Source of the DNA: Psittacicella melopsittaci
Lineage (GTDB): Bacteria > Pseudomonadota > Gammaproteobacteria > Enterobacterales > Psittacicellaceae
Assembly: GCF_003585925.1 (NCBI RefSeq)
Contig: NZ_NRJH01000018.1
Span: forward strand, 1 to 64,000
DNA length: 64,000 bases
Reading direction: 5' to 3'
Program-made: the position numbers and the translations under genes
In this document: one piece after another, positions 2,768 through 45,894 of the stretch
Layout of the letters: each line of letters begins with the position of its first letter
Position numbering within the stretch: the first letter of the stretch is position 1
The notes under the pieces: model-generated
Seen by the model: only the letters and a program-made list of their open reading frames with translations
Told to the model about the DNA's origin: nothing
Databases searched by the model: none

Positions 2768-3220
2768 TTAATCTTTGTCTACCTTGAACTCTGAGTTTTT
2801 GCCAAGGTTTTTATTTTCTACTTCTTCTTGATATTCTTTAGCTTTAATATTTAAGCTAGAATTATCAGTAATGTTTAAGTTTTCCCCTTTTAGTTTAGCC
2901 TTAGCAGCAGTTAAACTAACTTCGTTACTTACTTCAGTGGTTTGGGAATTAATTTCTAAATTATTGTCACTAGTAATAGTAGCACCATTGAGCACAACAT
3001 TTTGCCCTGAAATAACTACATTACCACCAGAAATAATTGAACTACCTTGAATATTAACACTACCGCCTTTAATATTCACACCTTTACCAGCCTGGATATT
3101 AGATTTATTAATCTTAGCTGTTTGTTGTGCAGTTACATCGGCAGTTCCTGAAACGTTAATATTTTCTTCATGCAGAGTTACATTCTCTCCATGTTTAGTG
3201 TAATTTTCTTTTTCTGACAT
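2768..3220 (-). CDS. Small repeat protein, predicted beta-helix (hemagglutinin-repeat-like), function unknown
   Basis: I do not recognise a specific family for this 150-residue protein. Residues about 15-125 alternate small, polar and beta-branched residues in short strands (for example GVNIKGGSVNIQG, GGNVVISGQNVVLNG), the pattern of parallel beta-helices such as filamentous hemagglutinin (FhaB/CdiA) repeats, bactofilins or the C-terminal solenoid of VgrG proteins. There is no signal peptide, no two-partner-secretion domain and no membrane segment, so as written it is cytosolic. A good Shine-Dalgarno site (AAAGGA, 8 bases before the ATG) and its own terminator say it is a real monocistronic gene. 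It is divergent from mrdA. It could be a remnant of a larger adhesin or a small polymerising scaffold; neither is shown. Confidence 0.75.
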   Translation of the reverse strand: MSEKENYTKHGENVTLHEENINVSGTADVTAQQTAKINKSNIQAGKGVNIKGGSVNIQGSSIISGGNVVISGQNVVLNGATITSDNNLEINSQTTEVSNEVSLTAAKAKLKGENLNITDNSSLNIKAKEYQEEVENKNLGKNSEFKVDKD

Positions 3221-22450: not shown

Positions 22451-22467
22451 ACAGCTCTCTTTTTTTA
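22436..22467. terminator. Bidirectional terminator between hxlR-type gene and ssb
   Basis: AGAGAGCT (22441-22448) and AGCTCTCT (22453-22460) with an AAAC loop, flanked by A-run and T-run. Confidence 0.88.
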
Positions 22468-23445
22468 AAATGGTAATTCATCTTCGCTAATAGAAGTACT
22501 TTCTACGACTTTATTTTCTGGCGTAGATTTTGTTTCAGCAAGGTTTGCTTTATTAAAGCTACTATTACCAAAACCTTCGCTCTCTTCTTTACTAGCTTCA
22601 TAAGGAGAGGAGGTTGGATTTACTTGTAAATCACTTGGCTTTTCTTGATTATTAAAGCCACTTTGGTTATTAGCACTTTGTTGATTAAAGCTACCATGGT
22701 TATTTGTATTTTGCTGAGCAAAGCCACCTTGGTTATTTGTATTTTGCTGAGCAAAGCCACCTTGGTTATTTGCATTTTGCTGAGCAAAGCCACCTTGGTT
22801 GTTTGCCCCTTGCTGATTATAACTACCTTGGTTATTAAAACCTTGCTGATTAAAGCCACCCTGATTATTAAAACCACCTTGGTTGTTATAAGGGTTTTGG
22901 TTGTTATAATTATTTGCTCGAGCTTGGTTAGCAAAATATTGCTCAGAATTATTATACTGCCCTTGATTCATATTGCCATAACCTGGCGGGGCATTATTAG
23001 CAAACTGAGGTTGGGAATTATAGCCGTTGTTATATTGTTGATACTGAGCATTCCAGTCATTACCGTTGTTGAAGTTCTGGAAGTTATTTTGTCCATATTC
23101 ACTTTTTGGCGGACGAATAATTGCCTGCACCGTCTCGGCTTGAATCTCAATCGAAGTTCGTTCGGTGTTAGTTTGTTTATCAAGATATTTGCGCGAACGA
23201 ATACTTCCTTCTACAAACACTAATGAGCCTTTTTCTAAAGTATGAATAACTCTAACTGATCTTTCGTTGTAACAAACAACTCTATGCCAGTCTGTATTGG
23301 TTTGCCACTGATTAGTAGTACGATCTAACCAAAAAGTACTCGTAGCAAGAGAAAAGGCTGCAAATTCACCATACTTGGATTGGAAAAACTCAGGATCACG
23401 CCCCACATTCCCAACGAGAAAAACTTTATTTACATATAAGGCCAT
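22465..23445 (-). CDS. ssb: Single-stranded DNA-binding protein (first copy, long repeat linker)
   Basis: SSB coats single-stranded DNA in replication and repair and recruits partners through its C-terminal tip. The OB fold (residues 1-110) begins ALYVNKVFLVGNVGRDPE and contains FSLATSTFW and TDWHRVVCYNER. The tip EDELPF is the partner-binding acidic tail. Between them lies a linker of about 200 residues rich in Asn, Gln, Gly and Phe with 11-residue repeats (GGFAQQN-type), making the protein 326 residues against about 170 usually. A TTG 17 codons upstream is rejected: the ATG at 23445 gives the family start. It lies 65 bases after the second ssb gene on the same strand. Confidence 0.93.
   Translation of the reverse strand: MALYVNKVFLVGNVGRDPEFFQSKYGEFAAFSLATSTFWLDRTTNQWQTNTDWHRVVCYNERSVRVIHTLEKGSLVFVEGSIRSRKYLDKQTNTERTSIEIQAETVQAIIRPPKSEYGQNNFQNFNNGNDWNAQYQQYNNGYNSQPQFANNAPPGYGNMNQGQYNNSEQYFANQARANNYNNQNPYNNQGGFNNQGGFNQQGFNNQGSYNQQGANNQGGFAQQNANNQGGFAQQNTNNQGGFAQQNTNNHGSFNQQSANNQSGFNNQEKPSDLQVNPTSSPYEASKEESEGFGNSSFNKANLAETKSTPENKVVESTSISEDELPF
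22663..22827 (-). repeat. Five 33-bp tandem repeats in the ssb linker
   Basis: Units start at 22663, 22696, 22729, 22762 and 22795; the middle three are almost identical. Each codes for 11 residues of the NNQGGFAQQN type. More diverged units continue to about 22900. Confidence 0.88.
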
Positions 23446-23471
23446 AAAATGTTCTCTTTTAATTATAGGAT

Positions 23472-23502
23472 AAGCTCTTGCTAGAAGTTCTAACAAGAGC
23501 TT
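23472..23502 (-). promoter_or_regulatory. Intercistronic hairpin between the two ssb genes
   Basis: AAGCTCTTG (23472-23480) and CAAGAGCTT (23494-23502) form a perfect 9-base stem, with a nested short stem in the loop. No U-tract follows on the minus strand; a TATAAT box (minus strand, near 23453-23459) comes right after. It may be an mRNA processing or partial-termination element that sets the ratio of the two SSBs. Confidence 0.45.
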
Positions 23503-23510
23503 TAAAACTC

Positions 23511-24218
23511 TTAGAATGGGATACTATCATCATCTACTTCAGATGAAGAACTTGGGCTTGGAGTTTTTCCAGCTGGTTTTTGTAAAGTTGTTGCTGTTTC
23601 TGGTTTAGACTCATAAGGTGAAGCTTGGTTGTTCCAAGATGAAACAGCTTCTTGCTCTTTATTACCACCCCAGTTGGCATTAGCATTTTGGTTAAAACCT
23701 TTACTACTAAAGTTATTGCCACCTGCTTGGTTATTAGCATAATTATTCTGGTTGTTAAAGCCATTACCTTGACCAGCAAAGCCATTGTTACCTTGACCAA
23801 AGCCTTGACCAGCAAAGTTGTTATTGCCTTGTCCTGCAAAGCCATAACCTGCTTGGTTACCAGAAGTAGGACGCTCTACAATATTTAAAGTATCTACTTG
23901 AACGTCTAGGATTGTGCGTTCGGTATTTGTTTGTTGCTCAGTATATTTACGCGTACGTAAAGAACCTTCAACAAACACAAAAGCACCTTTGTGTAATCTT
24001 TGTACCGTATTTACTAGGTTTTGTGGACTTTGTGGGTTAATAAATAAAGAACAACGTACCCAGTCAGTATTATTGATCCACTCTCCAGTATTTGAGTCAC
24101 GGTATGATCTTTGTGTTGCCACTGAAAAAGTATATAAAGTGTAATTTGGTCCCGTTAATACAGTAGGATCTTGTCCTAGGTTACCTAAAAGGGTAACGCG
24201 ATTAATATATAATGCCAT
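23511..24218 (-). CDS. ssb: Single-stranded DNA-binding protein (second copy)
   Basis: The 235-residue protein has an OB fold of the same family (ALYINRVTLLGNLGQDP, FSVATQRSYRD, TDWVRCSLF, FVEGSLRTRKY), a Gly/Asn/Gln/Phe-rich linker with GQGNN-type repeats, and an acidic tip DDDSIPF. Both tips are intact, so both copies should recruit partners. The OB folds differ at many positions, so the duplication is not recent. A strong Shine-Dalgarno (GAGGTG) precedes the ATG. It is the first gene of a two-ssb unit and is divergent from the uvrA-like gene, the position of the ordinary ssb in enteric-type genomes. Confidence 0.92.
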   Translation of the reverse strand: MALYINRVTLLGNLGQDPTVLTGPNYTLYTFSVATQRSYRDSNTGEWINNTDWVRCSLFINPQSPQNLVNTVQRLHKGAFVFVEGSLRTRKYTEQQTNTERTILDVQVDTLNIVERPTSGNQAGYGFAGQGNNNFAGQGFGQGNNGFAGQGNGFNNQNNYANNQAGGNNFSSKGFNQNANANWGGNKEQEAVSSWNNQASPYESKPETATTLQKPAGKTPSPSSSSEVDDDSIPF

Positions 24219-24582: not shown

Positions 24583-27500
24583 ATGAGTTTTCCACGTAAT
24601 ATAGATATTCAAAATGCTTATATTCATAATCTCAATATTAAGCATCTTGAAATTCCTTTAAATAAATTTGTCGTTATTACAGGTGCCTCAGGTAGTGGTA
24701 AATCTACTTTAATTCATAACGTTTTAACTAACCAAGCTGCACGTATGCTAAATCTTGGCTTAAATAGAAGCCTATTTAACAACCTGCAGTATTTTTCTGA
24801 CCATCAAGCGTTAAAAGTAACAGGAATTACTCCTGTGCAATATTTAAGCCAACGCTTTGAGCATAAAAGTCGTCGCTTAAATTTAGCTCAGTTTATCGAT
24901 GTAGAAACGCCAATTAACGTGTTATTTTCTCGCTTTTCTGCCTTTGCCGATGATAATATTTCCGAAGCTTATGATAAGGGAAAAATTTATAAACTTATTA
25001 CTAACCTTCCTTCGCCAGATAAACAAACTTTAGAAAACGCTTTACAACGTCGTGGACAGGGGTATAAATACCGTTATCAAGTAACCTTCCCTATTCATTT
25101 ACCTATGCTTCCTGGTTTAGAAGACCTTGATTTCCCTGCTCCAGATAATTTAACTCAAGATCAAATTATTGCCCGCAATAAGTTAATTTTCAAGGCAATT
25201 AACAGTAACTTTAACTATGACCAAGATACAGTTGTTGTTAATAAAAAGCATGTTTTTGACTATTATGATCTCCAAGACGATATCGAGGATTTAACTTTTT
25301 GTATTGAAACTTTTGATGTTTGTTTTTCCGAGTTTAGAGATCCACAAAATCTGCCAGAAAACTTTGCCATAAATTTTGATCATGCTTATGATAATGCCTT
25401 GCAATATGAAGAGCAAGCGTTTAAGGATTACTTTAATAAGCATGCTGCCCAACAAACAGATTTGCATAAATTAGGGCTAAAAAACTTAAAAGATGAGCAA
25501 AGAGTTGAGTATACTGCAACTAACAGTAATAAACTGCGCATACTCTATCCACCTTCAGTAGGGATTTACCTACCAACCCAAGAGCTACTTACCGATTATC
25601 CTTTACAAAGTGTGGTAGAGAATAAACAGAAAAAGCTAGTTTTTGATGCGCATGATCTTAACGCCTTTTCTACCTTTGGTAAAAATAAATGCCCTACTTG
25701 TAAAGGCTCGGGTTTAAATAGTGCAAGTAATGATGCTTTAAATGAATACTGCCCTAAATGTAAAGGTATAGGTCTAGCTAAGTATATTCTAGCAGCCAAA
25801 CTCGAAAACAAAACTTACAAAGAGTTATTCACCGAACCTCTTGATAAGGTATATAGTTTTTTCCAAAGATATTTAAAGAAAGAAAAAGGAAAAATTTCTC
25901 CTAGTGAAAAAATTAGTAATGCTGTAGATATGCAAGTTTTTAAAGTCTCTTTAATTCAAGAGATCTTAACTAACTTGGAACATCTGATTGACTTAAAACT
26001 TGGATATTTAAATCTGGTTCGTAAAATCTATACTCTTTCGGGCGGAGAAATCCAACATATTCAATTAAGTAAAATCTTAACCCATCAAACAACTGGAGTT
26101 ACTTATATCCTCGATGAACCTTCAATAGGTTTACCGCCTGCAAGCAACCAGGTACTAATTAATAAATTACGGGCGGTGGTTGATCGAGGCAACTCGGTTA
26201 TAGTTGTTGAACATGATCGCGATTTTATTACCCAAGCTGATTACGTTATAGTTCTTCATGCGGGAAATATTACCTTTGCTGGCGAACAACAGCAACTACT
26301 CGAAGCAGATATTCCTCTAGTTAAATATCTGCAATATCAAACGCCAATTTCGCAAGTTTTTGCAGATATAAATAATAAAAACTATAACCAAGCTTTAGAA
26401 CAAGATAAACTTTCGCTCGATCAAGAAGGCTTAAAAAATATTCTGATTAACACTAACTTTAGCCAAAATATTGCCAATAATCTTGATACAGCCAAAGTCT
26501 ATGCCAAAAGTTTAGATATCTCCCTCGAGACTTTATTCTCTCCCGCTTACAAAGAAATTAAACGGGAAAAGTTTGTTTATGTGGGCGTTAACCAAGGGTA
26601 CTTTAAAAACCAAACCGTTGCCTTTATGCGTAATGCGATTAACGTAATAACGGGAGTATCGGGATCAGGGAAGTCTTTCTTTGCTTATCGAGTTCTTTAT
26701 TTAGCAACTCAAGCTGCCTTAAAGCCTGGGGTTAAAGTTGAAGAATTTAAAAAGCAATATAAAATAAAAAATATTCTTGGGGGCATCGGCTCTTCTTTAA
26801 CACCTGAACAAAAAGTTAATCCAGGGCATAAATTCTCGCGTATTATCTATACCAAACAAAATCTGCATGAAGTTAATCTCAGTAGAAGTATTAGTTCTTA
26901 CTTCAATATAGATACAGATCTAGCTAAGATTTTTGCCGATAGTGCTAAATTAACTTTCCGCCAACAAAACTCAGTGCTCGGTAAATCAATTATTCTCGAA
27001 GAAGCAGACTTTGTTATTAAAACAGGAAAAAGAAAAAATCTTTGCTCGGAATGTAATGGTAAAAAATATATTCAAGTCCAACTCGAAAAGGATATTAGCG
27101 AAAATATAACCTGCCCTGAATGTAATGGAGCAGGCTTTGCACCTTATGTTCTTTCGGTATATTTATCTTATGACCCACATAGTCAGATGAGATACAATAT
27201 TGCTGATTTTTACAAGCTGACTATAGATCAGGCTTATGAGTTCTTGCTTAAATATCACAAGTCCTTTCCGTCAATAGGACTCAAACATATAATTCTACGC
27301 TTGGCTTATTTAAAACGTTTCCGTCTCGGGCATTTAAGCTTAGGGCAAAAGCTCGAAGATATTTCAGGTGGGGAATTACAAAGACTTTATCTCATTCGAG
27401 AAATTAGTGGCACTAAGATCAATAAAACTAATCCTAAAGATCAAGAGTATTTAATTATTATTGATGAACCAACCACAGGTCTCCACTTTGATGATATTCA

Positions 27501-27777
27501 ATCTTTACTCGACTTTTTAGTTGAATTAAGAAATGAAGGCCATACAATAGTTCTTATTGAGCATAATGTAGATCTTGTTGCTAACTGTGACTATTTAGTT
27601 GAGTTTGGTCCTGGAGCTGCTGATAATGGAGGTAAGGTAGTCTTTTCTGGAACTATCAATCAACTTGTTCAGCTCGTTGAGAATCCAGGGAACGAATATG
27701 TTAGTGATATGATGCAAGAAATCTATAACTATAACCTCAAACTCCACAAGTTTATCGCTAAAGAGCAAGAAAAATAA
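24583..27777 (+). CDS. Highly divergent UvrA-family ATPase
   Basis: UvrA is the damage-sensing subunit of nucleotide excision repair. This 1064-residue protein keeps the UvrA plan of two ABC modules each split by a zinc module: Walker A GASGSGKS (34-41), zinc module C370-x2-C373-x16-C390-x2-C393, signature LSGGE (485-489), Walker B with DEPSIGL; then Walker A GVSGSGKS (691-698), zinc module C821-x2-C824-x19-C844-x2-C847, signature ISGGE and IDEPTTGLH. Yet the sequence outside the motifs is far from ordinary UvrA, which is about 940 residues and extremely conserved. The usual N-terminal block ARQFL is missing. It stands where uvrA normally lies, divergent from ssb. It may be the only UvrA of a fast-evolving lineage, or a specialised paralog; I therefore give no symbol. 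Confidence 0.85.
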   Translation: MSFPRNIDIQNAYIHNLNIKHLEIPLNKFVVITGASGSGKSTLIHNVLTNQAARMLNLGLNRSLFNNLQYFSDHQALKVTGITPVQYLSQRFEHKSRRLNLAQFIDVETPINVLFSRFSAFADDNISEAYDKGKIYKLITNLPSPDKQTLENALQRRGQGYKYRYQVTFPIHLPMLPGLEDLDFPAPDNLTQDQIIARNKLIFKAINSNFNYDQDTVVVNKKHVFDYYDLQDDIEDLTFCIETFDVCFSEFRDPQNLPENFAINFDHAYDNALQYEEQAFKDYFNKHAAQQTDLHKLGLKNLKDEQRVEYTATNSNKLRILYPPSVGIYLPTQELLTDYPLQSVVENKQKKLVFDAHDLNAFSTFGKNKCPTCKGSGLNSASNDALNEYCPKCKGIGLAKYILAAKLENKTYKELFTEPLDKVYSFFQRYLKKEKGKISPSEKISNAVDMQVFKVSLIQEILTNLEHLIDLKLGYLNLVRKIYTLSGGEIQHIQLSKILTHQTTGVTYILDEPSIGLPPASNQVLINKLRAVVDRGNSVIVVEHDRDFITQADYVIVLHAGNITFAGEQQQLLEADIPLVKYLQYQTPISQVFADINNKNYNQALEQDKLSLDQEGLKNILINTNFSQNIANNLDTAKVYAKSLDISLETLFSPAYKEIKREKFVYVGVNQGYFKNQTVAFMRNAINVITGVSGSGKSFFAYRVLYLATQAALKPGVKVEEFKKQYKIKNILGGIGSSLTPEQKVNPGHKFSRIIYTKQNLHEVNLSRSISSYFNIDTDLAKIFADSAKLTFRQQNSVLGKSIILEEADFVIKTGKRKNLCSECNGKKYIQVQLEKDISENITCPECNGAGFAPYVLSVYLSYDPHSQMRYNIADFYKLTIDQAYEFLLKYHKSFPSIGLKHIILRLAYLKRFRLGHLSLGQKLEDISGGELQRLYLIREISGTKINKTNPKDQEYLIIIDEPTTGLHFDDIQSLLDFLVELRNEGHTIVLIEHNVDLVANCDYLVEFGPGAADNGGKVVFSGTINQLVQLVENPGNEYVSDMMQEIYNYNLKLHKFIAKEQEK

Positions 27778-29154: not shown

Positions 29155-30096
29155 TTATTCTTCAGCTTGGAAAGCCACAACTGAAGCAGGAGATACGATA
29201 CGACCATTTAGTTCGTATCCTTGAGAAACAACGTGAGCTACTGTACCAGCTTGCTCAGGAGTTTGGTAAGGGTATTGAGCTACGGCATCATGTAAGTTAG
29301 GATCAAATTTATCCCCAACAGCACCGTAAATTTTAACCCCATGTTTTTCTAGATCTTTTTTAAATTCTTTATCGAATTCTTTTAAGTAAGCAATAAATGC
29401 ATCAAACTCAGCATTGCCTGTATCTTTAGGCAGACGGTTTGCAGCCATATCTAAGTTTTGGAATAATGGCTTAATTGCATTTTTAATTACTTTTTCGTTA
29501 GCAAAGTTTACTGCATTTTCAGTATCACGTAAAGCACGTTCTAAACGACGGCTTTCTTCTTCAACTAATGGTGTTCGACTTGCAATACGTTGAATTTGTA
29601 AGTCATTTTCTACCGTTAGATTGTTTTGCGCTAACTCATATTCTTTTGCACTTAAAGTAGCTAAAGAATCAGCAACTTCTTGAAGTTCTTCAGGACTTAC
29701 TTGCTCTTGAGCTAAACGTTTAAGTAATTCTTCTAAGAAAGATAAAGCTTGGCTTGAAACAGTCCCTAAGTGGTCAATTTCTTCAGCTAGAACTAAAGCT
29801 TTAACTTCTTCGTGGGCAAGATCAGCTTGAGCTTCTGCTTGTGCTGCTTCTTGCTCTGCTTGAGCAGCTTGAGCATCAGCTTGTTCAGCTTGAGCTTCTG
29901 CTTCTTGAGCTTGTTCTTGAGCTTGCTCAGCTTGTTCTTGTGCTTGTTCTGCTTGCGCTTGAGCTTGCTCAGCTTTTTCATGAGCTAAATCAGCTTGTGC
30001 TTCTGCTTTTTCAGCTTCAACTTCAGCTTGGGTTGCTTTTTCTTCTGCTTTAGCTGCTTGTGCTTTTGCATCGTCGTAATGATGTTTTTGAGACAT
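29155..30096 (-). CDS. grpE: GrpE nucleotide exchange factor with a long Ala/Gln/Glu coiled-coil head
   Basis: GrpE releases ADP from DnaK (Hsp70). The C-terminal half is GrpE: long helix and four-helix region at about 155-250, then the beta domain with KHGVKIYGAVGDKFDPNLHDAV (251-272, broken here only by name) and GTVAHVVSQGYELNGRIVSPASVV (284-307), the family signature. Residues 24-97 are a low-complexity heptad-like segment of Ala, Gln and Glu that should form a very long coiled coil; ordinary GrpE is about 200 residues, this is 313. Its ATG overlaps the stop of the upstream gene (TAATG), with a GGAG site upstream, so the two are translationally coupled. That neighbour is itself GrpE-like but lacks the beta domain. 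Confidence 0.9.
   Translation of the reverse strand: MSQKHHYDDAKAQAAKAEEKATQAEVEAEKAEAQADLAHEKAEQAQAQAEQAQEQAEQAQEQAQEAEAQAEQADAQAAQAEQEAAQAEAQADLAHEEVKALVLAEEIDHLGTVSSQALSFLEELLKRLAQEQVSPEELQEVADSLATLSAKEYELAQNNLTVENDLQIQRIASRTPLVEEESRRLERALRDTENAVNFANEKVIKNAIKPLFQNLDMAANRLPKDTGNAEFDAFIAYLKEFDKEFKKDLEKHGVKIYGAVGDKFDPNLHDAVAQYPYQTPEQAGTVAHVVSQGYELNGRIVSPASVVAFQAEE
29806..30027 (-). repeat. Low-complexity repeat coding for the GrpE coiled-coil head
   Basis: The DNA is an imperfect array of short units coding for AEQAQ/EAQAE-type peptides, with no frame interruption across about 74 codons. Such arrays can expand or contract by 7-residue steps. Confidence 0.8.
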
Positions 30097-30560
30097 TATT
30101 CTTCTCCTTTTTCTTCTTTTACATGTAAACCTAAAGAAATTAGGTTATTTTCAAAAGCTTTTAGAATAAGCTCTATACCCTCAAAGTTAGCTTTAAGGTT
30201 TTCATCATCAGCAAATTTTGGTGCAAATTCAGCTAATTTACTTGATAGTTTTTCTAAGTTAGGTTTTAAACTTTCAAGATAAAATTTTTCTTGGGCAACA
30301 CTAACTTTAAATTTACGATCGCTTTCAACTCCTTTAATGCGATTTTGTAATCTATTAAAGTGGTCTGAAATTTCACGTAGCTTTTCACTATTTTCCGTAT
30401 ACTCTTTTAAGCCTTCATTTACTTTATTAGCCGTAACGAGATAAGCTTCAATTTTTTCCGCAAAATCAGGAGTAACTTCTTTTTTAGCAAAAAAGTCAGC
30501 CAAAGCTTTTAAGTCTTTTAACTCAGGGCAAGCTTCTTGACCTACATTTTTATCTGTCAT
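30096..30560 (-). CDS. GrpE-like protein lacking the beta domain
   Basis: The 154-residue, mainly helical protein resembles the helical half of GrpE. Residues about 86-106 (AQEKFYLESLKPNLEKLSSK) line up with ANEKVIKNAIKPLFQNLDMA of the neighbouring GrpE, and FEGIELILKAFENNLISLGLHV at about 127-148 matches the last helix that precedes the beta domain in GrpE. The protein stops right there, so the DnaK-contacting beta domain is absent. A good Shine-Dalgarno (AAGGA) precedes its ATG and its stop overlaps the start of the full GrpE gene by one base. It reads as a maintained paralog, not a decaying copy. A heterodimer with the full GrpE is an attractive but untested idea. It could also be an unrelated helical protein; the shared motifs make me favour GrpE. 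Confidence 0.72.
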   Translation of the reverse strand: MTDKNVGQEACPELKDLKALADFFAKKEVTPDFAEKIEAYLVTANKVNEGLKEYTENSEKLREISDHFNRLQNRIKGVESDRKFKVSVAQEKFYLESLKPNLEKLSSKLAEFAPKFADDENLKANFEGIELILKAFENNLISLGLHVKEEKGEE

Positions 30561-38720: not shown

Positions 38721-38754
38721 TATAAGTCCTTGTCTCAGATTAATCGCTTTTAGC

Positions 38755-38782
38755 GGGTTAATTAGCCAAGGCTAATTAACCC
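38755..38782. other. Strong hairpin at the end of the unknown three-gene block
   Basis: GGGTTAATTAGCC (38755-38767) and its exact complement (38770-38782) give a 13-base palindromic stem; a smaller hairpin CGCTTTTAGCG adjoins it. There is no U-tract on either strand, so it is not an ordinary terminator; mRNA 3'-end protection or protein binding is possible. Confidence 0.6.
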
Positions 38783-38794
38783 TCTAAACAACGG

Positions 38795-40666
38795 TTAATC
38801 TTTCTTAATATAAAATTCAAGATCCTCTTCAGGATAATTAATAATATCGTAAGGAATAAACTTATATTCATTGCTTAGATATTCATCTATATCCTCAGGC
38901 AATAAAAAGAAAGGGTTATAGTATTCGGTTATATATGCCGAACGCACAGGAATAGTTTTTTCCTCTTTAAGTTGAGCAACCTTACTATTTTTAGCTTTAA
39001 TTGCTCGATAAAGTGGTACTTCAATTTTTGGTAGCTCTGCAAAGGTTAATTGATCTTTACATTCACTTTCTAACCATAACTCAGCAAACTCATTCTCATA
39101 GTCATCTAAAATGGTTGCTCGTAAAGGAGCGTTATGATATTTACGTTGTTTTTGCATAGCGTGCAGATGCTCAACTATATGCTGATAACGCATTTTATCC
39201 ATTTGCTTTTCACTAAAACCAAGATGAGAAATTTGCGAAGTTTCAACTAGTTTACCACTTCTAAAGTCAGAATAAACCTCTTGCTCCTCTGTTATTTGCT
39301 CATAGAGATTTAAGTCATAGGCTTTAAGATCTACTAAATCTTCAAAGTCTAGATTGTAATTTTCAAAAATATGAATATTGTATTTTAACAATGAGAAGTC
39401 ATAATTAAAGCTATCGTCTAAACCAAATAAGGCTGGGTAATGATGATAGGCCTGATAATTATACTTAGTTTCAAATAACTTATGTTGTAGCGAAGAATCA
39501 TAAGTTTGAGAAATATAATAAACATATTCAAGTTTAGCTTGAGGCGTAAGTGCCTCTTTTTCCTCACGAGGCTTTTCTCCTTGTAAAATGGTATAAACCT
39601 GCGGGTATTTAAACTCTTGAACCTTACTTGCAAAAGGAAGAAAATCAGAGCTAAAATTTGGGGCTTTAATAGCATTTAAAACCTCAAATCCTTGGGCTAG
39701 ATTTTCCCTATCCTTTTGACTTAATTCATGTTTGAAGAATAAGTCATAGAAAATATTTAGCTTATTACTTAAGGTATAGAGACCTTGATCAAAAAGAGAA
39801 AGATAGATACTTTCGTTAGCCTTAGTATCTTTTTCTTTTAGTTTGAGTTCATAAGGGTTTAGTTCAACAGCTATTGGAGCAGTAAGTTGAGGATCATTCC
39901 CCAGATATCTTCTTGTTCCATAAGCTTCTTTTAAGTAATATCTTTGTTTATTTACTTTTGCCCCTACATCCGCCAAACGAATGGATTGATACAAACTCTC
40001 AAAAGAACCATCAAGAGATGCTACATGCTCACTATAAGCAAAGGATGATATTTCTTGATCAAGCTCAGGTAAGGTTAAATGTTTACGAATAAACGCCTTT
40101 TTTGCTTTTTTAAGCTCATCAGGATTGGACTCTTCCTCTTGCCAAGTATACTTATCTTCTAGCCCTTGAGGGGAAATATAGTAGTTATAAAGATGAGAAA
40201 TACCTGGAACTGTATAGCGTTTGTGAAGTGTCCGATGCACTTGGTCACCTGCTAATATTACTTCTCTATCTTCAATAGCTTCTAACAGATCATAGAACTT
40301 TACACTGAATATAGGTAAAAAGTATATGTCGTCTAAATACTGGAACTCATACAAATTATAAAGTTTACCTTGAAGACGAAAATTTAACTTACCTTGAGGT
40401 AAACTTACAATAGTTGTATGATCATACCTATCAAAGAAGTAACTATCACGAAAAACTCTATTTGCTATCTGAGATTTCTTTATATCTAAAATATCCCTTC
40501 TGCTCTTGAGCCATAAAGCCTCCATATCTCCACTATAGATGTATTTAGTATCATTAAGCAAAGCAAGATTCTGCTGATAATTTTCTTGCACTTTTTGATC
40601 ATATACATCTTTTAGAGAATCTACAGAGCTTTCACTTACAATATCTTGCTTAGGTAGCAAAACCAC
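38795..40666 (-). CDS. Unknown 623-residue protein (third gene of the novel block)
   Basis: I do not recognise any family, motif, signal peptide or membrane segment. The protein is soluble-looking, rich in Tyr, Phe, Leu, Asp and Glu, and shares this composition with the 1333-residue protein two genes upstream. A segment LPQGKLNFRLQGKLYNLYEF near residue 90-110 looks like beta structure; the rest appears alpha-helical. The frame opens with GTG at 40666, only 2 bases after AAGGAG; a TTG two codons later has better spacing, so the start is uncertain by two codons. It follows the poly-Asp gene by 32 bases and ends before a 13-base palindromic hairpin. Confidence 0.75.
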   Translation of the reverse strand: MVLLPKQDIVSESSVDSLKDVYDQKVQENYQQNLALLNDTKYIYSGDMEALWLKSRRDILDIKKSQIANRVFRDSYFFDRYDHTTIVSLPQGKLNFRLQGKLYNLYEFQYLDDIYFLPIFSVKFYDLLEAIEDREVILAGDQVHRTLHKRYTVPGISHLYNYYISPQGLEDKYTWQEEESNPDELKKAKKAFIRKHLTLPELDQEISSFAYSEHVASLDGSFESLYQSIRLADVGAKVNKQRYYLKEAYGTRRYLGNDPQLTAPIAVELNPYELKLKEKDTKANESIYLSLFDQGLYTLSNKLNIFYDLFFKHELSQKDRENLAQGFEVLNAIKAPNFSSDFLPFASKVQEFKYPQVYTILQGEKPREEKEALTPQAKLEYVYYISQTYDSSLQHKLFETKYNYQAYHHYPALFGLDDSFNYDFSLLKYNIHIFENYNLDFEDLVDLKAYDLNLYEQITEEQEVYSDFRSGKLVETSQISHLGFSEKQMDKMRYQHIVEHLHAMQKQRKYHNAPLRATILDDYENEFAELWLESECKDQLTFAELPKIEVPLYRAIKAKNSKVAQLKEEKTIPVRSAYITEYYNPFFLLPEDIDEYLSNEYKFIPYDIINYPEEDLEFYIKKD

Positions 40667-40698
40667 TACTCCTTTTTTGAGGGGGGATCAATATTTTC

Positions 40699-41637
40699 TT
40701 ACTCTTCTTCGTCATCGTCGAAATCGTCGTCATCGTCGAAATCGTCGTCATCGTCGAAATCGTCGTCATCGAAGTCGTCGCCGTAACCCTCGTCATCGTC
40801 GAAATCGTCATCGTCGTCGAAATCGTCGTCATCGTCATCGATGAAAGCTAAATCTTCATCGTCGATAATGAAATCGTCGTCATCCTCTGAGGAATCGATC
40901 CAAACTAATAATCTATCTACTACATCTTTAGGAGCGTTTGCTATTTGCAGCTTTAGCTCTTCTAGTTGTTCAAGTTCAGCTTTATACTCATCGTATTTAG
41001 CATTACGAGTCTCAGGTCTAACAAAACTTAGAGAAGCTAGTGTCAGAAACTCATCATATTTATCTTCAATACTTCTTTCAAGCCTATGAGTTTTCTTTAT
41101 CATTTCGAATAACTTAACACTTTTCTCTTTTAGAGTCGCAGCATCATCTTCAGGAGAACTCTCTGCCCATGCATTATCATCTTCAAAATAACTCTCAGCC
41201 CTTGCATTATCATCTTCAGAAGAATTCTCTGCCCTTTCTTTTGCCGCTTTACGTGCGTTTTCTATTCGCTCCTCTAGATCTCGTAGTTTTTTAAGTTCAG
41301 CATTATACTCATCGGCTAAAGCATTTATAGTGGTAGCGGAAACACCTAGAGCAGCAAGTTTCTCGTACTTTTTATATTTCTCAACAACACTTTGTTGAAG
41401 CATTAAACATTCAACTGACATTTGGAATAACTCATCTATTCCGCCTACTAGACTTTCATTATAATCTCCAGAAGAACTCCCTGCTCTTTCTTTATTATCT
41501 TCTGGAATAGCAGATAATAACATTTCGATTAAATTTTGAGGGTCCCCTAAGGCACTAAGAAGAGCATCATCTTCTCCTAATTGGTTATGGTCTTTTTGAT
41601 TGTTATTATCTTTTTTTTCCTTTTTTGACATAGTCAT
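40699..41637 (-). CDS. Unknown acidic protein with internal duplication and poly-Asp tail
   Basis: The 312-residue protein has three parts. Residues 70-132 and 176-238 are two copies of a helical domain (LF-M-x7-LxxSxxxKY... ending YNAELKKLRDLEERI and YKAELEQLEELKLQI). Between them lie three 11-residue acidic repeats of type AESxxEDDNAx (137-168). Residues 248-312 are almost only Asp with regularly spaced Phe (DDDDFD units). It has no signal peptide or membrane segment. Such tails occur in DNA-mimic, chaperone-like and histone- or cation-binding proteins, but nothing here decides. A good AAGGAAG site precedes two possible Met starts (41637, 41631). It sits between the two large unknown genes on the same strand. 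Confidence 0.8.
   Translation of the reverse strand: MTMSKKEKKDNNNQKDHNQLGEDDALLSALGDPQNLIEMLLSAIPEDNKERAGSSSGDYNESLVGGIDELFQMSVECLMLQQSVVEKYKKYEKLAALGVSATTINALADEYNAELKKLRDLEERIENARKAAKERAENSSEDDNARAESYFEDDNAWAESSPEDDAATLKEKSVKLFEMIKKTHRLERSIEDKYDEFLTLASLSFVRPETRNAKYDEYKAELEQLEELKLQIANAPKDVVDRLLVWIDSSEDDDDFIIDDEDLAFIDDDDDDFDDDDDFDDDEGYGDDFDDDDFDDDDDFDDDDDFDDDEEE
40702..40896 (-). repeat. 18-bp tandem repeats coding for the poly-Asp tail
   Basis: The repeating unit codes for six residues (D-D-D-D-F-D) and is nearly identical in several copies, mixing GAT and GAC codons. The region is visibly more GC-rich than its surroundings. Copy number could vary without a frameshift. Confidence 0.88.
41138..41236 (-). 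repeat. Three 33-bp tandem repeats in the acidic protein gene
   Basis: Units at 41138-41170, 41171-41203 and 41204-41236 code for the three 11-residue AESxxEDDNA-type peptides that join the two copies of the helical domain. Confidence 0.85.
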
Positions 41638-41682
41638 TACTTCCTTGAAAGTTAAAAGGGCATGTTAAATATTTTTTTGTCA

Positions 41683-41798
41683 AAATCATATGATTTACTC
41701 AAATCATCTAATCTATCAAAAATAAAAAACTAAATTTAGATAAATCATCAAATTAGCAAATTCATTTTAATCCTCTGATTTATCTAAATCACCTAATT
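41683..41798. promoter_or_regulatory. Iteron-like array upstream of the acidic protein gene
   Basis: The element AAATCA occurs four times forward (41683, 41701, 41742, 41786) and its complement TGATTT twice (41691, 41776) in 116 bases. The copies build a perfect palindrome AAATCATATGATTT (41683-41696), a hairpin 41690-41696/41701-41707, and 14-base arms ATTTAGATAAATCA (41734-41747) with its complement at 41776-41789. The three longer direct copies (AAATCA-x-CTAAT-like) are spaced 41 and 44 bases. It lies between the 1333-residue gene and the acidic gene, where a promoter or operator is expected. Confidence 0.55.
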
Positions 41799-41826
41799 CA
41801 TAAAGAGCTGAAGACATAGAATAAAT

Positions 41827-44800
41827 CTAATATTCATCAATATCTTCTTCATTTAATCTTGGGTATTTCCTTTCCTTGTATTCATCATTTTTTGGATAAG
41901 AATAACCTTCTTTTGTAAAGACAACCTTAGGAGATTGACCACTAATTCTTTCAAGAGGTGGCTCTGAATTTAAGGCAGGTTGGAACTCCTCCCCCCTTAC
42001 TTCTTTATCAACCTCTTGTTGTAAATTTTTAATTCCAGCTTTTATTTCTGGTAAAGCATTTGGTGGTATTACTTCACTTAAGTATTCTTCTTCAGTTGCA
42101 AATGGATAGTCGGAATCCAGATTATACTCAAGATTTTCAAATAAAGTTGCTAACTTAATTTGACGTTGTGAGTTACTATAGGTTGCTAAATCATTTTCAT
42201 AAAGATGAGTGAATAATGCTTGTTTACCTAGTAAAGTAAAGTCATACTTATCAAAAGATAAATTCATATCTGAACGCGTTCTCAGAATAGATTCTTCAAA
42301 GGATTTAGGAATTATCGCAACTTGATCAATAGAACCAATTACTTGATAAGTAGCAAAAAAGTCATCTAAATTAGCAAACGCTATTGTATTAGTTATTTTA
42401 GAGGCAAACTCTGGTTCTAAACCACTAGAAAACAGGTTGTCCCATGTTAAAGTAAACTCTTGCTGTTGATCTACATCAAGAAGAGGACTGGTTATTTCTA
42501 ATTCACTAGTAACTGGATTACGAGCAACATAGTAACCTCTACCTGCAACAGGATGCACCATACTTGCAGTTAACCCTTGTGTAAAGTCATAACTTATGGG
42601 TTGAGTATACCAGTTTAAGTTAACCCCCGCACTAGTTAAAGAGTAATCTGCCTCTCCATATTGCGCTAGGGTAGCAAATAAGCCAGGAATACTACTAAAT
42701 TTTTGCTCGACTAGTTTTTGTAAATCAGAATCTAAACTAGCAAATTCAGCTCCAAATTTACTTTGTAAAATCTGCTCTCTGGTAACCTTAGCAGGATATT
42801 TTTCTTGTCCTACTAAATTACTATATTGCGAGACATTAAGATTGTGATTTAAATCAAACTTATGTTGCACAAAATAGTTAACTTCATGGTCTCCTATTTT
42901 GTCTGCTTCTTGGGCAAAATAGATAATACTAAAACTATCGTTATAGTTATCTTTAACCAGATAATAATGATTAGCTTCTACTTGTTCAGGTATTTGATTA
43001 TAAAAGTCAACTTGCATTTGTACTTTATGTACCTTTTCAAGATTATACAGACTTAGGTCTTGATCTACTAACCATTTTTCTAATTCTTTACCTTTAGCAT
43101 TAAGCATTAGATTTAAAGAAACAAATCTTTGTTCTCGCGGTAACTGAGAAAGACGTTCATTATCAGTCAAAGAAAAGCTATCGCCAAAATTATAAACTAA
43201 AGCTTGAGGTAAACGAGCAAGTTGATTTTGGATAATAATACCTCGTTTGGTAATACGACGTAAACTCTCATATAGCTTATCATAAGGCAAATTCGTATTT
43301 TTAGCTATACTTGTTGGCAAATAGTTACCAAAACGACTTGCCATAAATTTAGAGCTTAGAATACTGTTTTCTTTGCTTTTGAAAATATACTGATCTAGAC
43401 TTTGCTCGCGTGTAACATCGTTATTTAAGATATTTAACTGGCGTTGTACATCAAAATTAAATCCTGAATAAGTATATTCTAGACCATTAAAGAAAAGATT
43501 ATTTACAAAAGAATAATTAGATTCTAGATCATTTATAGCTGTTGTATAACCTTTCTCCTCATATAACACTTTCTCTACGATCCATTGTCCACTTATATCA
43601 CAGTTTTTATCTAGAGTATAGATCTTAAGCATGCGATTTGGATCAAAGTTAATTGCAGACTCAAGATAAGTAGTACCTAACTTAGCATTTTCTCCCAGCA
43701 ATATCTGGTAATAATCTGAGTAAGGGAAAGGAAGCATAAGGTCCTCATCCTCTTCATACTCTTCATAATCTAAATACTTCTCATACTCTACAGTGTCCTT
43801 ATCAATTATATACTTTCCTCGCCCTGCATAAGAACTTAAGGCAAAGTATATAGCTTCTCCAGCATAAGCCTCACTATCCTGTGAAACTTTAATCTCATTA
43901 CTTGTTGAAGCTAATAAATCATGGTTACGAGCCCCAAGATATTCTTTAAACTCTTGTTCGTGCTTATGCACTATATCTGCTATTTCATCAATTTTAAAAT
44001 AAGACAGATCTACGTTATTTAATTGATAAGAGTTAAAACCGCGATGCCAATTTACAGCCCCTAAGCTATTTATAGCAAAGCGTTTATATAAATATAAAGC
44101 ATCAAAGAGTTCAGGATGGCTATATTGCTCTTCATTATAGCGTAAAGTCTCCCCATCTTCTTGCTCATAAACAGTTAGATCTGGCTTGAGAAGATCGGCA
44201 TTAAAAATAGCCCTACTAAATTGAGAAATATTTGGTCCAAATACTTGATTTAAATTAGCATGAATTTTAAAAATATCAGCATTTACCCAAAGGTGATCTT
44301 GTAAGTTAATTTCCTCGCGTAAAACTATATGGCGTCCATCATTCTTAAATTGAGAGGTAAGTAAAGCTATTTCTTCAGGTGAATAGCCAAAATCAAATTC
44401 AAGATGAGATTTTAAATAAATATTAAAGCGATGCACATCAGTTTGCAACTGAGAAATTAAACTTCCAGAAACATCCTCTTGACCAATTAAAGCAGGAGTA
44501 GAAATACGATAAGCGGCTTGGCGACCAAAAAGAACGTCACCTATATATTGACTATCATTAGTTGTAACAAAATTATATGCCTCACTATAACCAGCGTCTA
44601 ATAAAGCATAAATATTAGTTAGATAGTCATTAATTTTATGCTTTAACTCATGTGAGGCGTAGTATCTCATCCCATTTACTAAGGCTTCACTAAACCAGCT
44701 GTTGAACATTTCAAAAACTGGAAGCATTTGTTGCCAAGCAGTAAAAGGATATCTTTGGCGATAGGTAAAAGCCGAACTTAAAAGATTTATATTTTGCGTA

Positions 44801-45828
44801 AACAGAGTCGGTTTACCATATTTAAAAGAAGCCTGTTTATAAGTTATTTCCAACTCTTGGAGTTCTAAATTCCCCGCTCTTAAAGGGTAATCTTCAGGAA
44901 TCTCGATAAGTAAATTTTCTTTATATGCAAAATCAGCAAATAAATTATCTAAATCTGCGTCTTTGTCTAAAGGATGAATTTCTAATTCGTGACGTCTATA
45001 TCCTTGAGAAAAAAGTTTATGTAATTTATCTTGATGCTTATTTTCTTTGTAATAAGTAGTAACAAAGGTCGAAGCAGGTAAGATTTTAAACTGTGGGGAA
45101 AAATTTGCAAAAGGAATATACTCATAGTAAGGGAAGTACTTAGCTAGAGCTTCTCTTTCTTGCTTTTCTTTTTCTTGCTCCTTTTCACGTGGAACATGTA
45201 AATTGCTTAATTGCTCAATAATCCCAGGAAGTAAAGCTTGCTCTGCCGGAACTTTAATTACTTTAGCTTTGCGTTTTAAATAGATACCAAAACTTGTGTC
45301 TAAAAGACTATTAGTTGTTTTAGCATCAGCAAAGCCTGCCATTTTTAAATTTAGACTACTATACTCAAGTTGAAAATTAGCTATATTCTTTAATAAACTT
45401 GGCAAAATAGTATTTTGCACTAAAAGTTCATTCTTATGCGTCTCAATTTGCTTTTGCACAAGATTTTTTGGCAGATGTAAATTCTCTTCTAAAAAATCTA
45501 ATAACTCAGGACTTGGTTCTTGAGTTAAAGGCAATAAATAGTTAGCATGTAAACGAACAAAAGCATCAGGATTTATTTGTGCTTGCGAAATATAAGCTTC
45601 TTTATTATCTTTTAAATTAAATTTATTTGGAATAGAAGCTGCAAATGTCAGATTCTTTTGATATAGATTAAATAATCCTTCTTGCAACAATAGAGAAGCT
45701 TCAGGACTATCTACGCTCTCAAGGTAATCATTGACAAAATTTTGCTCTTCAGAATCTAGATCTTCTAGACTAGTAACTGTACGTACTAAATTCTTTTTCA
45801 GATTGAAATTTTCATTATCAGAAGTCAT
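41827..45828 (-). CDS. Unknown 1333-residue protein (first gene of the novel block)
   Basis: I recognise no family, catalytic motif, P-loop, nuclease or helicase signature, signal peptide or membrane span. The protein is soluble-looking, rich in Leu, Asn, Tyr, Phe, Glu and Asp, with a charged stretch EKEQEKEKQERE near residue 220-235 and an acidic EYEEDED patch near 715. The C-terminal 90 residues are acidic and probably disordered. The AGGTGG site is close to the ATG at 45828. The glnS terminator lies just upstream, so the block either has a promoter hidden there or depends on read-through. It has no stop or frameshift over 4 kb, so it is under selection as a protein. Composition resembles that of the 623-residue protein downstream. 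Confidence 0.8.
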   Translation of the reverse strand: MTSDNENFNLKKNLVRTVTSLEDLDSEEQNFVNDYLESVDSPEASLLLQEGLFNLYQKNLTFAASIPNKFNLKDNKEAYISQAQINPDAFVRLHANYLLPLTQEPSPELLDFLEENLHLPKNLVQKQIETHKNELLVQNTILPSLLKNIANFQLEYSSLNLKMAGFADAKTTNSLLDTSFGIYLKRKAKVIKVPAEQALLPGIIEQLSNLHVPREKEQEKEKQEREALAKYFPYYEYIPFANFSPQFKILPASTFVTTYYKENKHQDKLHKLFSQGYRRHELEIHPLDKDADLDNLFADFAYKENLLIEIPEDYPLRAGNLELQELEITYKQASFKYGKPTLFTQNINLLSSAFTYRQRYPFTAWQQMLPVFEMFNSWFSEALVNGMRYYASHELKHKINDYLTNIYALLDAGYSEAYNFVTTNDSQYIGDVLFGRQAAYRISTPALIGQEDVSGSLISQLQTDVHRFNIYLKSHLEFDFGYSPEEIALLTSQFKNDGRHIVLREEINLQDHLWVNADIFKIHANLNQVFGPNISQFSRAIFNADLLKPDLTVYEQEDGETLRYNEEQYSHPELFDALYLYKRFAINSLGAVNWHRGFNSYQLNNVDLSYFKIDEIADIVHKHEQEFKEYLGARNHDLLASTSNEIKVSQDSEAYAGEAIYFALSSYAGRGKYIIDKDTVEYEKYLDYEEYEEDEDLMLPFPYSDYYQILLGENAKLGTTYLESAINFDPNRMLKIYTLDKNCDISGQWIVEKVLYEEKGYTTAINDLESNYSFVNNLFFNGLEYTYSGFNFDVQRQLNILNNDVTREQSLDQYIFKSKENSILSSKFMASRFGNYLPTSIAKNTNLPYDKLYESLRRITKRGIIIQNQLARLPQALVYNFGDSFSLTDNERLSQLPREQRFVSLNLMLNAKGKELEKWLVDQDLSLYNLEKVHKVQMQVDFYNQIPEQVEANHYYLVKDNYNDSFSIIYFAQEADKIGDHEVNYFVQHKFDLNHNLNVSQYSNLVGQEKYPAKVTREQILQSKFGAEFASLDSDLQKLVEQKFSSIPGLFATLAQYGEADYSLTSAGVNLNWYTQPISYDFTQGLTASMVHPVAGRGYYVARNPVTSELEITSPLLDVDQQQEFTLTWDNLFSSGLEPEFASKITNTIAFANLDDFFATYQVIGSIDQVAIIPKSFEESILRTRSDMNLSFDKYDFTLLGKQALFTHLYENDLATYSNSQRQIKLATLFENLEYNLDSDYPFATEEEYLSEVIPPNALPEIKAGIKNLQQEVDKEVRGEEFQPALNSEPPLERISGQSPKVVFTKEGYSYPKNDEYKERKYPRLNEEDIDEY

Positions 45829-45848: not shown

Positions 45849-45894
45849 CAAGAAAAAGAAAAGGGATGGCAAAAACCATCCCTTTTTCTTCTAT
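45849..45894. terminator. Terminator of glnS
   Basis: AAGGGATGG (45861-45869) and CCATCCCTT (45876-45884) with a 6-base loop; A-rich and T-rich flanks extend the stem and give a U-tract on either strand. It stands between glnS and the 1333-residue gene, both on the minus strand. Confidence 0.85.

Follow-up and report, generated by a model that had tools for sequence, protein, structure and literature searches.

A candidate genus-specific complex encoded by fast-diverging orphan genes between glnS and ybfF in Psittacicella

What is encoded by the three large frames that separate glnS from ybfF in Psittacicella melopsittaci, and do they belong together? The window analyzed here is a stretch of 64,000 nucleotides from the 2.29-Mb draft genome of this species. 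On its minus strand, genes follow in the order glnS, A, B, C, ybfF, a GT8 glycosyltransferase gene, rluB and tadA, the labels rluB and tadA near ybfF being presumptive, as read from the sequence. Gene A (41827..45828, minus strand) encodes 1333 aa, gene B (40699..41637, minus strand) 312 aa and gene C (38795..40666, minus strand) 623 aa. A preliminary description of this DNA had noted three consecutive same-strand genes of these lengths, set between glnS and ybfF, with intact frames and no mobile-element context. We find the same gene order and three open frames on the minus strand, and A occupies one fixed site in all four species compared. The codon usage and GC content of A, B and C resemble those of other genes of the window. 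Given this native composition and the presence of homologues at the same locus in congeners, A and C are no chance frames. Searches for RNA genes gave no tRNA anywhere in the window and no Rfam family near the A-B-C locus.

We compared the window with three congeners, P. gerlachiana EEAB3T1, P. hinzii 111 and P. 'hinzii' B96_3 (n = 4 species in total). Gene A is single-copy in 4/4 species, each time directly downstream of glnS, with 32-40% identity among species and frames of 1185-1333 aa, plus a 2217-aa frame in P. hinzii 111 that is discussed below. A is missing from the 391 other genomes of the order and the 368 genomes of the class that were sampled (about 760), and has no match in phages, plasmids or viral contigs. 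Scanning the genome contig collection with the single A protein returned nothing, and scanning it with the A alignment returned the three congeners only. The lineage-specific character proposed initially is thereby upheld, A homologues being confined to Psittacicella among the genomes and collections sampled.

The same holds for the claim that these proteins belong to no familiar family: searches of Pfam, PHROGs, NCBIfam, PADLOC and PDB gave nothing meaningful, and no nuclease or NTPase family was matched, in keeping with the earlier remark that the large proteins lack such motifs. Four-member profiles gave no meaningful match in PDB, and single members none in Pfam or NCBIfam. Several candidates were rejected as short matches that homologues do not share, namely TrmB (E = 0.043), AIF-MLS (0.019), phrog_24338 (0.00097), YciI-like (0.0074) and alpha-amylase N (0.009); the rejected Pfam, NCBIfam and PHROG matches fall under curated cut-offs where such exist. 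Two PDB matches, to Laminin beta-1 (E = 0.016) and to proteasome subunit 8 (E = 0.7), were also rejected, both being weak and probably of a coiled-coil-like kind. A and C thus resemble orphan genes such as those of a Bacillus survey (PMC10003748) in having no homologue outside a narrow clade and no family model; they differ in that A is large (1200-1300 aa, 2217 aa in the longest frame), keeps its position in all sequenced species of the genus and is paired with another orphan. Orphan genes as a kind are already known.

What kind of protein is A? It is a soluble acidic orphan with a net charge of -70. The richness of the large proteins in Leu, Glu, Tyr, Phe and Asp, pointed out previously, is confirmed, and A is also rich in Asn (7.4%). 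The proteins of the locus are soluble and acidic, with no transmembrane segment or signal peptide (best 19-residue hydropathy 0.6-1.3), and their likely starts show no hydrophobic N-terminus, which agrees with the lack of secretion motifs reported at first sight. The four-species alignment of A contains 185 invariant positions; W, G, L, P, R, Y, N and F are over-represented among them, H, K and D are scarce, and Cys is missing. They gather in four conserved blocks (residues about 89-165, 350-500, 800-1100 and 1150-1230). Invariant residues of this type are typical of fold-building positions, not of an active site. The most likely role of the conserved blocks of A would be that of a helix-rich scaffold for binding, not of an enzyme; this reading draws on residue statistics from four sequences, since AlphaFold models were unusable. 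Structure prediction followed by structural search, which the preliminary description had recommended as a check, was run for A: mean pLDDT was 32.0 for residues 75-1240 and 38.7 for residues 800-1240 with four-row alignments, and we attribute this failure to the shallowness of the alignment. A Foldseek search of PDB with the model of residues 800-1240, itself too poor to inform, returned nothing at E <= 0.001.

A and C diverge fast. Values of dN are 0.62-0.81 for A and 0.76-1.06 for C, against 0.06-0.10 for glnS, 0.09-0.17 for ybfF, 0.16-0.23 for rluB and 0.31-0.41 for the GT8 gene, with dS near or beyond saturation for all genes compared. The rate of A is roughly 4-8 times that of ybfF, about ten times that of glnS and about twice that of the GT8 gene. 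Despite this divergence, second codon positions are the slowest in both A and C. Since A frames are open in all species, second positions change least and invariant residues are clustered, we conclude that constraint remains on A. This bears on the idea that A and C are merely neutral or decaying frames without function. Their low identity and variable lengths would fit such a view, but all four A frames have stayed open though synonymous sites are near saturation, and the invariant blocks and second-position constraint add to the case against it, so that we regard it as extremely improbable.

The link between A and C comes from comparing gene arrangements. For gene C, the TTG at 40660 is a more probable start codon than the GTG at 40666, judging by the spacing of an AAGGAG motif. 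Its homologues, of 352 aa in P. 'hinzii' B96_3 and 496 aa in P. gerlachiana EEAB3T1, follow A in both genomes; C thus comes after A in three species, with B intervening in P. melopsittaci. Homology among the C proteins is restricted to the C-terminal ~260 aa, with 21-29% identity. In P. hinzii 111, we observed a single frame of 2217 aa, with A at its N-terminus followed by ~930 aa more. At about residues 1950-1990, each of the three C proteins can be aligned to this frame with an identical offset, through the motif LYxxxYxxxAYxxxxAxxGLD, and the C-like stretch lies at a distance from the end comparable to that in the C proteins. Each match is marginal when taken alone (shuffle fractions 0.048, 0.005 and 0.064; hhalign E = 0.012), and we therefore grade the 2217-aa frame as likely, not proven, to be A joined to C. 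The match of the A4 alignment to P. hinzii 111 is circular, that sequence being among its members. The N-terminal half of C from the window showed no homology to what the P. hinzii 111 frame has beyond A, and we found no relation of A to C by sequence.

B presents a different picture. The protein combines a duplicated helical unit with an Asp/Phe tail and has a net charge of -66. The duplicated helical domain seen earlier in this middle protein is a true duplication, with 31 identities over 74 aligned positions and an alignment score of 110, compared with at most 67 in 2000 shuffles. A 33-bp repeat (41143..41236, minus strand; 2.8 copies, 85% matches) lies inside B between the two helical units. 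The tail is encoded by an 18-bp tandem repeat array (40709..40836, minus strand); it had been described as Asp-only, and Asp runs are indeed present, but with Phe spacers and a few Glu, Gly, Tyr and Ile residues. No homologue of the B body was found in the three other Psittacicella genomes. Furthermore, the gap between A and C is 7 bp in P. gerlachiana and 92 bp in strain B96_3, and the frame is continuous in P. hinzii 111, leaving no room for B in the congeners. B is most readily understood as a recent addition, built from repeats and particular to this species, and not as a core subunit.

A comparable tail occurs in MukE of the same genome (PF04288, E = 1.9e-93; contig C6, about 17.4 kb, L002:609-1730), which ends in a long acidic D/E/F tandem-repeat C-terminal tail. 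The body of B is not MukE-like, and the resemblance is one of tails, with no kinship. Acidic tails in this genome were counted by DNA pattern only. The preliminary description had seen a block of three genes, the poly-Asp protein being the middle one, and one may imagine B as the functional core, imitating nucleic acid or holding basic partners, with A and C as its support. The strong negative charge, the duplicated helical unit and the location of B between A and C speak for this, but B is absent from the three other species that keep A, and its tail is made of a slippage-prone 18-bp repeat and has a parallel in MukE; we consider this reading very improbable. From the three-part block, the link between A and C survives, and B, with no homologue in three congeners, drops out. 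The survey of co-occurrence advised at the outset gives the same division: A and C are adjacent in three species, while B occurs only in the window genome.

Judging from these sequence comparisons, the reading we favor, at somewhat below an even chance, is that A and C form one genus-specific, cytoplasmic, vertically inherited and non-enzymatic complex, to which B is an extra. A and C would be parts of one complex, probably present as a single chain in P. hinzii 111, and we infer that they bind each other. The pair would have been passed on vertically and kept at one place in the chromosome, its sequence diverging fast while its frames are constrained to stay open. Between A and the C domain, the sequence may serve as an acidic linker under loose constraint, which changes in length and through the growth of repeats, and B would be a recent species-specific extra occupying the linker position.

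Fast divergence by itself fits arms-race proteins too, and a possible defensive nature had been suggested for the block. If A and C formed an anti-phage or other conflict system, their divergence would be accounted for, and the several-fold higher dN relative to glnS and ybfF, with frames intact, in large partnered orphans, is compatible with this. Defence systems usually have a patchy, mobile distribution. Here, the genes lie at the same site in 4/4 species and nowhere else in the genomes sampled, in no mobile context, and match no nuclease or NTPase family. There is no meaningful PADLOC match either: the sole hit is a weak one of B residues 85-229 (E = 0.0034) to one coiled-coil stretch of the 1472-aa JetC/DUF3584 profile (PDLC00582), no other Jet subunit was matched among the tested proteins, and B is not a member of that system. 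The defensive suggestion thus finds no backing, and we view a conflict system as distinctly unlikely.

Alternatively, A and C may be a known complex of housekeeping or DNA maintenance that has diverged to an extreme degree; its usual version would then be missing from the genus. That A is kept at one site in 4/4 species accords with this, as does the unusual make-up of known proteins in this genome, with a coiled-coil extension in GrpE, the acidic tail in MukE and a presumed UvrA-like protein. Against it, four-member profiles retrieve nothing from PDB and single members nothing from Pfam or NCBIfam, and the genes beside glnS in five genomes from other families are ordinary, with no large orphans. 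We rate this alternative as unlikely, if of some weight. In one of the other-family genomes (G023; L083 3470-8980), glnS and ybfF are separated by a few genes, which resemble flavodoxin and Fur, names that we assigned by eye. From this arrangement, glnS and ybfF may be old neighbors between which A-C now stands. A large orphan with a partner, at a fixed site and changing several-fold faster than its neighbors, offers a case for weighing extreme divergence against new invention, and also for asking what selects for speed of change (n = 4 genomes).

Two cis-features of the locus, a hairpin between glnS and A and a stem-loop between C and ybfF, are new in this analysis. The first (45859..45886, minus strand) is a terminator-like hairpin that follows glnS and lies some 30 bp ahead of the start codon of A, in which GGGATGG...CCATCCC is followed by a T-rich tail; an equivalent is present in 4/4 species. 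Since little promoter space remains between the hairpin and A, A may be transcribed in part by terminator read-through.

The second element (38749..38788, minus strand) lies a few bases past the C stop codon and is conserved in 3/4 Psittacicella species; in P. gerlachiana it is missing and the C-ybfF gap is 30 bp. It consists of two arms, TTTAGAGGGTTAATTA and TAATTAACCYGCTAAA, around a variable loop. The arms are the same in all three species apart from one C/T difference that keeps pairing (G-C to G-U); loop length differs, and the outer stem has three pairs altered on both sides. Folding is far better than that of shuffled sequences (z = -5.3, -6.9 and -8.4). The stem-loop is single-copy in each of the three genomes, no second copy being found in them, and occurs in no other of the 395 genomes of the order searched. 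The lack of a T-run sets it apart from standard intrinsic terminators. Its half-sites stand 8, 5 and 12 nt apart, a different spacing in each of the three species, for which reason an RNA hairpin is a better fit than a DNA operator. A bolder proposal, in which A and C are an undescribed Psittacicellaceae machine with its own fold, present in every species, fast-diverging and regulated by the C-ybfF stem-loop, appears to us possible yet rather doubtful.

Other genes of the window also deserve mention. GrpE (29155-30096, minus strand; PF01025, E = 1.4e-21) carries a long N-terminal A/E/Q coiled coil, and the 154-aa protein beside it (30096-30560, minus strand) has a weak GrpE match under the cut-off (E = 0.0044). 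A 1064-aa protein (24583-27777, plus strand), which we take by eye to be UvrA-like, contains two P-loop regions and CxxC zinc-type motifs, its Pfam matches being only to general ABC/AAA and DnaJ-type models. A 150-aa protein (2768-3220, minus strand) with no evident signal peptide matches the haemagglutinin repeat weakly (PF05594, E = 0.004), under the cut-off. Finally, two tandem ssb genes (22465-24218, minus strand), both matching PF00436, encode proteins with long N/Q/G/F-rich linkers.
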